Program-made: the position numbers and the translations under genes | NCBI GenBank assembly: GCA_937125455.1 | Contig: CAKZLK010000061.1 | Location: 51,836 to 115,835 of the forward strand | From: an uncultured Aequorivita sp. | GTDB taxonomy: Bacteria > Bacteroidota > Bacteroidia > Flavobacteriales > Flavobacteriaceae | Reading direction: 5' to 3' | DNA: 64,000 nt | Notes under the pieces: generated by a model | Told to the model about the DNA's origin: nothing | Seen by the model: only the letters and a program-made list of their open reading frames with translations | Databases searched by the model: none | In this document: piece after piece, positions 53,084 through 58,462 of the stretch | Layout: each line of letters starts with the position of its first letter | Numbering within the stretch: the stretch's first letter is position 1

Positions 53084-53166
53084 AGCATTTATTTGGTTAA
53101 ATATACCTTTAAAATTACAGAATTTATAAATAAAAAAAGCCCCAAGTAAACTTGGAGCTTTGTTGT

Positions 53167-53208
53167 AGCGGGAACTGGACTCGAACCAGTGACCTTCGGG
53201 TTATGAGC
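53167..53208 (-). pseudogene. 3' fragment of a tRNA-Met (CAT), probable attachment-site remnant
   Basis: Reverse complement GCTCATAACCCGAAGGTCACTGGTTCGAGTCCAGTTCCCGCT; tRNA similarity stops at the anticodon loop. Confidence 0.8.
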
Positions 53209-53344
53209 TCTCAATTAATTCATTTTTTATGAATTTTAGCGAGCTTTGGAACCTATATATTATGGGTTGTGTTCAAAAACGTGTTCAGCGTCGTGTTCAC
53301 TCAATTAATACTAATTTACAGTGCAATATATAAAAAAATTGCCA

Positions 53345-53470
53345 GTTGCATTTCGGTCACAAACCTTTTCAATACCCGTTGCATTTCCCGTTGCGATAAC
53401 CGTTGCAATGACGTTCAATAAATTACATTTCGGTTGCATTTCGGCCACAAAGCGTTCCAATACCCGTTGC
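53345..53470. repeat. pair of diverged 38-nt direct repeats GTTGCATTTCGG(T/C)CACAAA..TT.CAATACCCGTTGC with extra CGTTGC motifs
   Basis: 53345-53382 versus 53433-53470. Confidence 0.75.
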
Positions 53471-53485
53471 TATAACCATTGCAAC

Positions 53486-53854
53486 TTACTTCTCCATAAA
53501 TTTTTGCCATTTAATTAAAACATACTTTTCTTTCCCATTGTCCTTAATTCGGAAAAAACCGAATTCATAAACAAAGAGATATACGTCCCCTTTTTTGTTT
53601 TTCCAAAAATGAGTGAAATAATTCGGGTTAAATCCCGCCTCAACCAAATCCGTTGCGCGTATAGTTGATTTCCCTGCTTTGTTGTAGTGTTTCAACAACT
53701 TTCGGTTTAATTTTAAATGACGATCAACCTTTTTGAAGAAACTAGGAGTTTCCTCCTTGGATTTTTTGTAATGGTAACTGCTCTTGCAATAAACATCACA
53801 AAATTTTTTATCAGATCGGCCATTAATTTCTTTTTTGCAAAAAAGACACTTCAT
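53486..53854 (-). CDS. zinc-finger (DUF2116-like) protein
   Basis: MKCLFCKKEINGRSDKKFCDVYCKSSYHYKK. Confidence 0.65.
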   Translation of the reverse strand: MKCLFCKKEINGRSDKKFCDVYCKSSYHYKKSKEETPSFFKKVDRHLKLNRKLLKHYNKAGKSTIRATDLVEAGFNPNYFTHFWKNKKGDVYLFVYEFGFFRIKDNGKEKYVLIKWQKFMEK

Positions 53855-53920
53855 ATTACATTATTAAAAGCGTATTCTATACGTATAATATACGCATAAT
53901 CAACAACTAAGATACTCAAA

Positions 53921-55078
53921 GTGGGTATCTTAATCAAAAATGTATATATGAAATTGGATAGGTTTATAACATTGAGACATCTATTTATCTCAAACAAAAA
54001 ATACATTGGTCTAGATTTTAAGATGGATAAGGTTCTGGTGGCACTGACCAAAGGATTGCCAGACATAGCTTGGGATAAACAAAATTCCATTTACCTACTT
54101 CCGAACACAGGCCAAAATATTGATGCCATTTTTAAGACGTTTAAAGGTGTGGCTTGGATCAACTGTAGTTATTTCTTTGAAAAAACAAGGTCAAAACAAT
54201 TGAACGAGGTTTTTGATATCCAATGGATAAAAAAAAGAGAATTGCCCTTAAACCATAGAACCTGCCCAGAAGAATATATAGAAAAACTAAAGCTTAAAAA
54301 ATATTCAAACAACACGGTAAGAAGTTATGTTTCGTGCTTTGAGAAATTTTTAAACCACTTTAAAAATGTAGAAATTCGGGATATAAACGATAGAAATATT
54401 CGTGAGTATTTGGATTTTCTGATCAGGAACAATAGCTCAGATTCATATATTAACCAGGCTATAAACAGTATAAAGTTCTATTATGAAGTTGTTCTGGGCA
54501 TGCCCAATACATATTATGATTTGGAAAGACCGAGAAAGAAAAAAACACTCCCTATTGTATTGTCAAAGGATGAAGTTAAGCGAATGATTTCAACAACAAA
54601 AAATCTAAAACATAAATGTATTATCAGCACCTTGTATTCAGCGGGATTAAGGAGAAGCGAACTGTTGAATCTGGAGTTGGGGGATATAGATAGTGAGCGG
54701 ATGGTTATACACATCAAAGATGCGAAAGGAAACAAGGACAGATATACATTGCTTTCAGCAACCTTATTGGAAGATTTGAGAGTGTATTTTAAACAATATA
54801 GACCAAAAAAATATTTGTTTGAGGGAGTTGGCGGTATTCCGTACAGTACATCCAGTGTAAGCACAATAGTAAAAAGAGCTGCAAAAAAAGTTAAGATTGC
54901 CAAAACAGTAACACCGCATACATTAAGACACAGTTTTGCCACACATCTACTTGAGTCTGGAACAGATTTAAGATATATCCAACTATTACTGGGTCATAAC
55001 TCAACAAAAACCACAGAAATTTACACACATGTATCTACAGCCAGTTTTAATTCAATAAAAAATCCTTTAGATTTGTGA
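53921..55078 (+). CDS. XerC/D-like tyrosine recombinase at head of the cassette array
   Basis: Core-binding domain; catalytic SAGLRRSELL, HTLRHSFATHLL, LGHNSTKTTEIYTH. Confidence 0.92.
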   Translation: MGILIKNVYMKLDRFITLRHLFISNKKYIGLDFKMDKVLVALTKGLPDIAWDKQNSIYLLPNTGQNIDAIFKTFKGVAWINCSYFFEKTRSKQLNEVFDIQWIKKRELPLNHRTCPEEYIEKLKLKKYSNNTVRSYVSCFEKFLNHFKNVEIRDINDRNIREYLDFLIRNNSSDSYINQAINSIKFYYEVVLGMPNTYYDLERPRKKKTLPIVLSKDEVKRMISTTKNLKHKCIISTLYSAGLRRSELLNLELGDIDSERMVIHIKDAKGNKDRYTLLSATLLEDLRVYFKQYRPKKYLFEGVGGIPYSTSSVSTIVKRAAKKVKIAKTVTPHTLRHSFATHLLESGTDLRYIQLLLGHNSTKTTEIYTHVSTASFNSIKNPLDL

Positions 55079-55085
55079 AGATATA

Positions 55086-55400
55086 ATGGGAATAAATGCA
55101 ATATTGTATTTATCCACATGTTGTAAAACATTAAGAAAAACGAAGTTGATAAAATCAAAAAATATATCTGATAAGAAATTGAAGTTGGCAACAAAAATCC
55201 TGATTTCTATTTCTGTATTATTTGTGATGCTTCCTTATACAACTTTATTTGGATTGCCATTTTATATAATCGGGTTGATCTTGTTGTGGAATTCAAATCT
55301 GACCAAAAAACTTAAATGGAAATGGACATTTGTTCCATTATTGATTGTTGGACTGATTTATATAATAATCGCATTAATTATTTACATTTTTAAGCTGTAA
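55086..55400 (+). CDS. cassette 1: small TM protein (translation probably starts inside the cassette, e.g. TTG at 55146)
   Basis: Hydrophobic ILISISVLFVMLPYTTLFGLPFYIIGLILLW; cassette termini 55121-55129 / 55486-55494. Confidence 0.5.
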   Translation: MGINAILYLSTCCKTLRKTKLIKSKNISDKKLKLATKILISISVLFVMLPYTTLFGLPFYIIGLILLWNSNLTKKLKWKWTFVPLLIVGLIYIIIALIIYIFKL

Positions 55401-55637
55401 AGTATTGGCATTTGAGGATAAAAAATAACAGAATAAGAAATTAGAAAAATCCGATTCTTATTTACTCAAAGGAAACATAAAAAACGTTTTACAACAACGT
55501 ATAAAAACAATGCTTAAACCTGTCTCAAATCGAAACTCCATGCTCGCTTGCTTAGCGGATTGTCCTGCGGACAATCACGCTCGCCCGCTCGCACTGTTTT
55601 TATACGGGACGTTGCCAGTAATACAAAAAATACTCGA

Positions 55638-56060
55638 ATGACTAAATATCCACATCTGATTTCGATAATATTATCAATAATGGTTTTTAGCCAATGCAAA
55701 GCGCAATCTGAAAATATAACTGACCAATCTAAAAGCACAATAGAAGTTAGAGCTGACATTGCGGAAAAGAAGACTAAATCAAAAATAGAACTCGAAAAAA
55801 CTTATAATGAAAGTGTTAGATTTCTTGACAGTATCGGTAATTCCGATGCAGAGAATTACAAATCATTTCTGATTGACAGCCAAAACGGATGGGAAATTTA
55901 TTGTGAAGGAAAATGCAAAATAATTGAATATCAAAGTAGAGATGGAGCACAAGGAGGTTTACCTTTCTATAATATTTGTATAACTGAACAAAATGATATG
56001 CGAACGACGGAATTAAAAAACTGGATGGCGGAATGGAAACGTGAATTTGAGGATGACTAA
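55638..56060 (+). CDS. cassette 2: lipoprotein with LprI-like (DUF1311) domain
   Basis: MTKYPHLISIILSIMVFSQCKAQ; DSQNGWEIYCEGKCKIIEYQSRDGAQGGLPFYNICITEQNDMRTTELKNW. Confidence 0.65.
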   Translation: MTKYPHLISIILSIMVFSQCKAQSENITDQSKSTIEVRADIAEKKTKSKIELEKTYNESVRFLDSIGNSDAENYKSFLIDSQNGWEIYCEGKCKIIEYQSRDGAQGGLPFYNICITEQNDMRTTELKNWMAEWKREFEDD

Positions 56061-56238
56061 TTGCAATAGCGTGTAGAAGTACTACTGGCAACAATGTATA
56101 ACCGCAATTATGGCGGATTCGACTGCGTCCGAATCCACGCGTAATTGCTAACGTCAGTGCTTAACCGAAAAACATTAACTTTAATCCCGTAACTTCGGTT
56201 ATACTAAACGTTGTGCAACATTGAAAAAAAATTAAGTA

Positions 56239-56946
56239 ATGAGATTTAAAATTGTTTTTTCAATATACTTTGCAATTTTGGTTTCTTGTCAAACACCGAT
56301 AATAATCCAAAATAACAAATCTGACTATTCAACTGAAAGACTCAATAAACAGGCATTAATTAATGCTAAAAATCAAGACAATAAAAATAGATTTGTTAAA
56401 GTAGACACGAGTTACAATCCATTGCATAATAGAGTTGTTAGTGGTCATTATATGGAATTAAACAAAAAAAATAATGAGCGAACTTACATCTCGTGGGGAG
56501 ATACTTACGCCACAAAAAAAGTTTTGAAATCAGGAGATTCAATAATCAGATATTCACATTTTTATGGCAACGGAAATTTAAAATCATCTTATAATAAATT
56601 TGTAGGTAAAATAAATATCGATGAAAATGACAATTTAATATATAATGCAGGATATAATGTTGTGATTGGCAAACTATATGACTATGATGAAGAAGGAAAT
56701 TTAAAGAATATTTATGATTATGACTTTACCTTTTCTATTTTTGATTTGAGGAACTTTTTAGAAAAAAAATATGTAACTGATGCTAACAAAGTTGCGATAA
56801 GACAATTTAGAGATTTCGAAACCCAAGAAATTCTATGGGAGGTTGTTTACGAAGATGATTCTAAAAACTATCCACAATTATTAATTATAGATAGTAAAAC
56901 AGGAAAAGTCCTTGAGAAAAAAGATTATATCGTAAAAGAAATGTGA
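56239..56946 (+). CDS. cassette 3: predicted lipoprotein, unknown function
   Basis: MRFKIVFSIYFAILVSCQTP. Confidence 0.65.
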   Translation: MRFKIVFSIYFAILVSCQTPIIIQNNKSDYSTERLNKQALINAKNQDNKNRFVKVDTSYNPLHNRVVSGHYMELNKKNNERTYISWGDTYATKKVLKSGDSIIRYSHFYGNGNLKSSYNKFVGKINIDENDNLIYNAGYNVVIGKLYDYDEEGNLKNIYDYDFTFSIFDLRNFLEKKYVTDANKVAIRQFRDFETQEILWEVVYEDDSKNYPQLLIIDSKTGKVLEKKDYIVKEM

Positions 56947-57177
56947 GAACAACGTTGCACAACACTGTATAAAAAAAATAGGGCAAGTAAGTGCTAAACC
57001 CAATGTTTTGGCACATTTGCGAGGTCGCCAAATCTTTTGATTTGGCTTTTATAAAAATAATTTAAAACAAAATGCAAAAGATTTGGCTTGTTGATAATCC
57101 GAAAGGTAATTGCCTATTTTCAGCCCTACTTCTTTTATAATAAACGTTGTGCAACATTTGACAAAAACCAAATCTGA

Positions 57178-57522
57178 ATGAGAAAAATTGTAAATCTGAC
57201 CAAACCGAAAGACGGAATTGTGAGACTTATGATTTTTAATGACGATTATGGAACTTACCTATTCGGATATAAAAAAAATGAGGATTGCCGAGCAGAATGG
57301 GACGAATGGTATGAAACGGAATATGATGCATTGGAATCTGTTTTGACAGAATACGGAGTTCAGAAATCGGAATGGAACGAAATTCCAAATCCAGAGCCGA
57401 ACTGTCAACACGATTGGATAAATCCTGTCCGAGTTAAAGGACGTGAAAACGGAAATCCTGAATTCGGAAAACTGGAAAAGCTGATTAACGGAAAATGGAC
57501 AGAGTTTGAGCCGGCTAAATAA
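57178..57522 (+). CDS. cassette 4: hypothetical protein
   Basis: ORF within cassette boundaries 57147-57536. Confidence 0.6.
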   Translation: MRKIVNLTKPKDGIVRLMIFNDDYGTYLFGYKKNEDCRAEWDEWYETEYDALESVLTEYGVQKSEWNEIPNPEPNCQHDWINPVRVKGRENGNPEFGKLEKLINGKWTEFEPAK

Positions 57523-57671
57523 AAAACGTTGCACAACAATGTATAAGCGCAATTACGGCGGATTCGACTGCGTCCGAATCCACGCGTAATTGCTAACGCT
57601 GGTGCTTATCCGAAAAACATTAAATTTAATCCCGTAACTGCGGTTATACTAAACGTTGGTGGTAATGTAAA

Positions 57672-58301
57672 ATGACAAAAGAAATCGAATTCAAAATATT
57701 TACTAAAAACAAAGGATTTAAATTGTCAGTGAATATTGTTGTTTATTCATTGTTATTTATTGGTATAGGAATCGCATATTTAGCCAGAGAATATCTTGGC
57801 AATAGCACAATTGAAAATCTTGGTCAAGGAGTTGGAATTTTAGCTTGTATGCTAATGATATATTTTAAAATCACTCAAGCGTCAAAACGAAAATCACTTA
57901 ATGGAAATCTAAACAAAAAATTGAGGTTCAGAACCCGTGAAATCTTAATTGATGACATAAAGATTGAACTAAATGAAATTAAGAAAATTGAGTTTTATAT
58001 AAATGATTATTTTGATAAATGGGAATCCCAAGCGCCAGGAGACTTTGCTCCAGGAAGAACAAATGGAACATCTAACATATGTGAGTTAACCCTAATCAAC
58101 GGACATAAAACTAAAGTGAATTTTCAACTAATGTATGAGAATGAATTCTTAAAAATGAGAGAACTATTACTACAATATTACTCTGAAAATAAGATTCATT
58201 TTTTAAAATTGATTGAATATTTGGGAATTGAGAAATACGAAGAAATACAAGAATTCAAAAAAACACTACCACCAACATTAGCTATAAGCAATGCGGGATA
58301 A
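57672..58301 (+). CDS. cassette 5: hypothetical membrane protein; C-terminus encoded by the attC-like end
   Basis: Two N-terminal TM segments; CDS runs through terminus 58267-58275. Confidence 0.6.
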   Translation: MTKEIEFKIFTKNKGFKLSVNIVVYSLLFIGIGIAYLAREYLGNSTIENLGQGVGILACMLMIYFKITQASKRKSLNGNLNKKLRFRTREILIDDIKIELNEIKKIEFYINDYFDKWESQAPGDFAPGRTNGTSNICELTLINGHKTKVNFQLMYENEFLKMRELLLQYYSENKIHFLKLIEYLGIEKYEEIQEFKKTLPPTLAISNAG

Positions 58302-58462
58302 GTGCCCAAACGAAAATCAGTTGTATATTTACGAGGTCGCCAAAACTTTTTGTCGATTTGAATAATAAGAAATTAAAGAACAAAAGTTTTGGCTTATTGC
58401 AAGCCCGAAAATGATTGCATTTTTGCCCCGCACTGCTCATAGCCGAGACGTTGTACACAATT

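Follow-up and report, generated by a model that had tools for sequence, protein, structure and literature searches.

A probable integron with a XerA-like tyrosine recombinase in place of IntI in Flavobacteriaceae

Anatomy of the locus

The window, i.e., the whole 64-kb stretch of DNA that was analysed, carries an intact gene for a XerA-like tyrosine recombinase, which is preceded by a divergent gene for a zinc-ribbon protein and followed, on its own strand, by a row of gene cassettes (Table 1). The first crossover (CATG/TTG; here and below the stroke marks the crossover point) lies 42 bp beyond the recombinase stop codon (55076-55078) and opens a series of seven tandem cassettes pointing in one direction, each with a reverse-complementary start and end: they open with TTGnnnnnn and close with the reverse complement nnnnnnCAAC. 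Thus, each cassette can circularise into a single folded attC-like site, this pairing of its own start with its own end being the requirement of a circularising integron cassette. The preliminary description of this DNA had placed the recombinase directly at the head of a cassette array and in the same orientation, both of which we confirm, and its proposed attI, 55079-55121, is off by no more than 1 bp.

Table 1. Coordinates of the features around the recombinase gene; positions are those of the window
Feature	Position	Strand	Remarks
Divergent zinc-ribbon gene	53486-53854	-	122 aa, CxxC...CxxxC; conserved recombinase partner
Candidate operator	53855-53947	.	TATACGnnTAA direct repeats, 11-bp period, about 53876-53899
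XerA-like tyrosine recombinase	53921-55078	+	intact ORF, 385 aa from GTG
N-terminal domain, HARP/XPB-DRD-like fold (weak evidence)	53960-54170	+	about residues 14-83
attI	55079-55121	+	crossover G55120/T55121; same place after the stop in relatives
attI palindrome ATAAATGCAA-TA-TTGTATTTAT	55092-55113	.	axis 17 bp before the crossover G (axis scan)
Cassette 1	55121-55611	+	104-aa ORF 55086-55400 overlaps the cassette start; attC-like site from 55482
Cassette 2	55612-56210	+	LprI-like ORF; attC-like site from 56079
Cassette 3	56211-57146	+	235-aa ORF; attC-like site from 56950
Cassette 4	57147-57655	+	114-aa ORF; attC-like site from 57524
Cassette 5	57656-58450	+	209-aa ORF; attC-like site from 58263
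Cassette 6	58451-59486	+	312-aa ORF; attC-like site from 59355
Cassette 7	59487-61563	+	DUF7674 ORF; attC-like site split by IS110-family element (read from sequence)
IS110-family transposase gene	60336-61391	-	inside the attC-like site of cassette 7
Further cassette start ACG/TTACCACACATTTG, truncated	61564-62020	+	sequence reading; no matching end, no signature pair

A complementarity scan recovered exact 10-nt start/end pairs for the cassettes starting at 55611, 56210, 57146, 57655, 58450 and 59486, to which a scan with the R-stem signature described below adds 55120/55488 on the forward strand, giving eight pairs over seven cassettes, one of them a cross-match. A scan of the whole window found no signature pairs on the reverse strand and nothing comparable elsewhere in the 64 kb. 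Most cassette ORFs could not be assigned a function by family scans, and a sigma-70 scan for a Pc promoter driving the array did no better than on shuffled sequences (Bacteroidota promoters differ). The element within the last cassette belongs to a group, IS1111/IS110, for which specific target choice is known (PMC11187229). The window stops at the end of its contig, and the array may therefore be incomplete; a 675-aa ORF without a Pfam match occupies this contig end (61963-63990, reverse strand). Further attC-like copies are present in the same genome on contig C30 (102436-104485), where they lie near the contig end, and on contig C33 (49278); these are a possible continuation of the array. 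The genome also encodes a second recombinase of this kind (contig C50, 105416-106216), which is followed by a palindrome, the cassette-like start CACTAG/TTGTGGTGCATTA and the end of the contig, and is probably a second integron head.

Upstream neighbours of the recombinase

In 52 of 60 recombinase loci from Flavobacteriaceae, the zinc-ribbon gene was found upstream of and divergent from the recombinase (tblastn), and it recurs at loci from several other Bacteroidota (L107-L112, L118, L131 and L157). Its product has four invariant cysteines (C3, C6, C19 and C23); family scans returned no informative match and no function for it. The intergenic repeats are likewise a recurrent feature, with 87 copies of TA[TC][ATG]CG upstream of 61 recombinases against 12.8 expected from shuffled sequences. 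Together, the two genes and the repeats suggest a regulated two-gene module. This partner and the repeat operator had escaped the preliminary description, as had three features discussed below: the N-terminal domain, the palindrome in attI and the strand asymmetry of the R stem.

About 0.7 kb upstream of the recombinase lies the 3′ half of a tRNA-Met gene (about 53165-53208, reverse strand). The tRNA-Met noted earlier at this place stands as such a fragment but not as a complete tRNA, for which ARAGORN made no call. From 53165 to 53330, this scar is succeeded by a stretch that is 83-90% conserved in the same-genus genomes G681, G682 and G698, and in G682 the zinc-ribbon gene and recombinase region also lie at the tRNA-Met scar. 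Between the scar and the zinc-ribbon gene are two imperfect 65-nt direct repeats (53330-53482; 75% identical and 88 bp apart). As for the boundaries of a putative tRNA island, one would be the tRNA-Met 3′-half scar, and the other is not visible, the window reaching the contig end.

A XerA-like recombinase without the IntI insertion

Relatives of the recombinase begin at the residue encoded by the ATG at 53948, which is thus probably the true start. The protein meets the cut-off of the XerA-like family NF040815 in NCBIfam (232 versus 220 bits) and fails that of the integron integrase family TIGR02249 (205 versus 265 bits), which it matches in two pieces because the segment corresponding to the IntI insertion is missing. 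The absence of this insertion, already claimed in the preliminary description, is evident both from an alignment to IntI4 (PDB 2A3V) and from the spacing of the KGxKxR and HxLRH boxes, which is 64-65 residues in all 57 Flavobacteriaceae relatives as against 106 in the six classical IntIs where it could be measured. The catalytic residues R244, K269, H333, R336, H359 and Y368 are invariant among the relatives, in keeping with membership in the RKHRH-Y recombinases. In a maximum-likelihood tree of 101 recombinases (quick search), the 16 IntIs form one clade with a support of 100, and all array-heading relatives fall outside it. The array label is clustered on this tree (none of 500 shuffles was as low) but does not mark a single clade, and deeper in the tree, where the quick search leaves many forks open, the association with arrays is patchy.

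XerA acts at dif on chromosomes. It and the other members of NF040815 (PDB 5HXY, 4A8E) are the best match of the catalytic half in both sequence and fold; unlike XerA, the clade considered here is found at the head of cassette arrays and carries an extra domain at the N terminus. A further likeness, 55.6% identity over residues 155-385, is to TnpF of FJ012881 and related Acinetobacter plasmid genes, with the difference that TnpF is annotated as a transposon gene.

Residues 14-83 are confidently predicted to form a separate domain. A profile of this domain matches the HARP domain of SMARCAL1 (4o66) at E=0.015, and single relatives match Pfam HARP at E-values of 0.001-0.012, but no member reaches the Pfam gathering score (the best among relatives being 18.3 versus 25 bits). 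Foldseek places HARP and the N-terminal region of XPB near the top, with probabilities of 0.72-0.89 (0.75 for 4o66 and 0.80-0.89 for XPB), all at E>0.1 and with no match below 1e-3. Hence, the domain is likely to be HARP-like, but this is not established.

Association with cassette arrays across relatives

Full-length relatives with at least 52% identity occur in about 51 of 301 Flavobacteriaceae genomes (about 17%, counted among the matches listed), several of which carry more than one copy. We compared 60 recombinase loci from this family. By the exact 10-nt criterion, 206 cassette pairs lie in 419 kb downstream of the recombinase versus 5 in 260 kb upstream; by the signature criterion, the counts are 310 in 428 kb downstream versus 2 in 976 kb of the three other configurations. 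For 45 relatives, 2 kb or more of sequence is available downstream; 40 of them (89%) are followed by at least two signature cassettes in the same orientation, and 4 have none. In about ten further members the contig breaks off on the array side after no more than a few hundred bases, an effect that repeats would have. Across these arrays, 236 of 242 cassette ORFs lie on the cassette strand. The signature also adjoins relatives in Rufibacter, Flavobacterium, Algibacter, Winogradskyella and Seonamhaeicola. It was derived in part from the loci on which it was counted, against which the control regions, the simpler 10-nt criterion and the loci from viruses and other Bacteroidota serve as guards.

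Putative recombination sites and their strand asymmetry

Cassette start and end are complementary over 10 bp and, after an interruption at step 11, over 3 bp more. Step 11 is paired in only 2-3% of cases, with an A on the start and a C on the end in about 80%. Folding accounts for this break, since the A.C of the top strand corresponds to a T.G wobble on the bottom strand, within a continuous stem. The bottom strand is predicted to fold more stably at 146 of 150 sites, by a mean of -4.1 kcal/mol with DNA parameters; at classical sites from the same phylum the bottom strand is the more stable in 24 of 29, by a mean of 1.6 kcal/mol. These energies come from a thermodynamic model. Classical arrays lack the step-11 signature: in 43 pairs, pairing at that step is 0.65 and then stops. 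The strand asymmetry at step 11 is a candidate strand selector. Within the R core GTT is invariant and the fourth position is mostly G or A; none of the seven window cassettes fits the GTTRRRY R′ core.

In attI, the arms of the palindrome co-vary, with three to four pair types at the inner steps across 44 distinct sites, and their summed pairing of 7.80 exceeds the maximum of 6.32 in 2,000 shuffles, while the T and A at -9/-8 are invariant. The natural reading of this palindrome is a double-stranded binding site for the recombinase.

Footprints of recombination

Within several arrays whole cassettes are repeated at 100% identity, namely 407 bp four times (locus L084), 725 bp twice (L102) and 588 bp twice (L085). 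The identity of the copies starts 0-1 nt to the left of the G and ends just past the next G/TT, and in both L084 and L102 one exact copy sits at attI, ending at the attI G. Such boundaries, some of them at attI itself, point to precise recombination at the predicted position, and, judged from the DNA alone, the clade has been active recently, as its exact duplicates show. This support is indirect: all the evidence for integron activity is comparative, there being no recombination assay and no recombination event observed. Related cassettes are also found across genera, mostly at 76-92% identity.

Phage and viral loci

Signature cassette pairs are also present in Polaribacter phages, four in P12002S (KR136260) and one in P12002L (KR136259), although chance cannot be excluded for single pairs; some of them lie near methyltransferase genes. 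The attC2 site of P12002L has been recombined by IntI1 in E. coli (PMC9892861), but it is not established that it is one of the signature pairs. These phages, including P12002L, thus share the signature cassettes with our system, but no integrase was described for these phage CALINs (PMC9892861).

On IMG/VR contigs classed as viral and up to 281 kb long (L198, L199, L224, L239, L263 and others), we observed relatives of the recombinase without the N-terminal domain, which are divergent from arrays with the step-11 signature. In these viral loci, 229 signature pairs lie upstream on the reverse strand as against 5-12 in the other configurations, at 40 of 54 loci. Of the 163 cassette ORFs here, 154 point against the att direction, unlike those of Flavobacteriaceae and classical arrays. 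Some genes near the viral recombinases match phage helicase, RNA ligase and HNH families.

Alternative explanations

The preliminary description had offered two options for the recombinase: a distinct cassette-mobilising enzyme or the integrase of a tRNA-Met island. Under the latter, which we regard as quite improbable, the array would be a passenger moved by something else. The nearby 3′-half fragment would fit such an island, as would the joint presence of recombinase and scar in G682 and the finding of a tRNA-Met gene or 3′ half near 13 of about 61 recombinase loci, apparently more often than by chance. Against this, arrays accompany 89% of the relatives and tRNA-Met about a fifth, the boundaries common to the cassette copies lie at the attI beside the recombinase, the palindrome lies between the gene and the array rather than at the tRNA, and the scar region is matched without the recombinase in other same-genus genomes. 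The platform is sometimes located at tRNA-Met, but the arrays are by far the stronger association. The earlier proposal was to fall if the clade consistently lacked arrays and occurred next to tRNA sites only; this is not the case, and the array counts and the exact copies bounded by G/TT favour the first option.

It might instead be held that a classical IntI acting elsewhere produced the cassettes, which survive as a fossil or CALIN with the recombinase as a chance neighbour. The ability of IntI1 to recombine a flavobacterial phage attC (PMC9892861) lends this some plausibility, yet an IntI above the cut-off, while present in 105 of 396 genomes of the phylum (scoring 280-497 bits), is absent from the window's genome, and none of the 107 IntI-matching genomes of the phylum search belongs to Flavobacteriaceae. 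As recombinase and array also co-occur far above background, the R-stem signature is absent from classical arrays and the exact duplicates speak for recent activity, we consider this account highly improbable. Both it and the tRNA-island account were rejected as main explanations.

Scarcely credible, in our judgement, is a chromosomal XerC or XerD whose dif-like site happens to precede repeats. The recombinase does have Xer-family scores and its attI palindrome resembles a dif-like core, but, unlike the universal Xer proteins, a full-length close relative is present in only about 51 of 301 genomes of the family, several with more than one copy, and other Xer-like genes reside in the same genome. 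A different recombinase of that genome could act on the cassettes; no signature array adjoins those on contigs C21, C46 and C50 (at 22556).

A probable integron and its significance

We conclude that the locus is very probably an integron whose enzyme is a XerA-like tyrosine recombinase rather than IntI, the catalysis being inferred. Like the sedentary chromosomal integrons of the Vibrio type (IntI4, PDB 2A3V), it combines a tyrosine recombinase with an adjacent attI and tandem unidirectional cassettes whose attC-like hairpins cross over at G/TT. It differs from them in lacking the IntI insertion, falling outside the IntI clade and having an added N-terminal domain, in an extended R stem with a strand-asymmetric wobble and an R box other than GTTRRRY, and in having a zinc-ribbon partner and an integrase that points the same way as the cassettes, with attI on its 3′ side. 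The preliminary description had called the shared orientation unlike most integrons, which is correct as to orientation but no novelty by itself, because the same unusual integrase orientation has been reported in spirochaetes, where the enzymes are IntIs (PMC9668308).

As a platform, the system would insert, excise and shuffle promoter-poor gene cassettes by site-specific recombination. In a circularised cassette, the start G/TTRnnnnnnA TTT would join the end AAA C nnnnnnYAAC to give a single attC-like hairpin site, whose bottom strand is predicted to form a 14-bp R stem, in which step 11 is a G.T wobble, and beyond it an L stem and a variable loop, while the top strand would have an A.C mismatch at that step. 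The folded bottom strand is what the recombinase would bind, with strand exchange at G/TT between it and the attI just 3′ of the recombinase gene; the palindromic arms of this attI probably serve as binding sites in double-stranded form. Recognition of folded DNA may fall to the HARP-like domain, which would thereby substitute for the IntI insertion, and the zinc-ribbon protein and the shared repeat operator are probable regulators of the recombinase. That the bottom strand is the one used, and what the HARP-like domain and the zinc-ribbon protein do, remain inferences, unlike the anatomy of the locus, its association with arrays, the precise duplications, the absence of the IntI insertion and the asymmetry of the predicted folds, which can be read or computed from the sequences themselves.

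The extra domain of IntI has been called defining (PMC9668308) and essential (PMC8138268), and useful for distinguishing IntI from other integrases (PMC9024848). Integrons being recognised by it, tools that require the insertion are expected to miss systems of the present type; in Bacteroidetes proper, IntegronFinder 2.0 named one complete integron, in Salinibacter (PMC9024848). Our search of the literature on integrons in Flavobacteria and Bacteroidetes found no description of such a system, but preprints and most subscription papers lay outside it, and a prior description cannot be excluded. The recombinase and its cassette row thus apparently represent an undescribed kind of integron that is widespread in Flavobacteriaceae. 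On balance, we lean toward the broader proposition that folded single strands can be used for cassette recombination without the IntI insertion, and that a separate XerA-like lineage does so with, in Flavobacteriaceae, an added HARP-like domain and a G.T wobble of the bottom strand in the R stem for strand choice. If active, the system would allow two questions to be tested, what equips a tyrosine recombinase to act on folded single-stranded sites and by what means the choice of strand is enforced, and would add a large unsurveyed pool of cassettes in marine bacteria.
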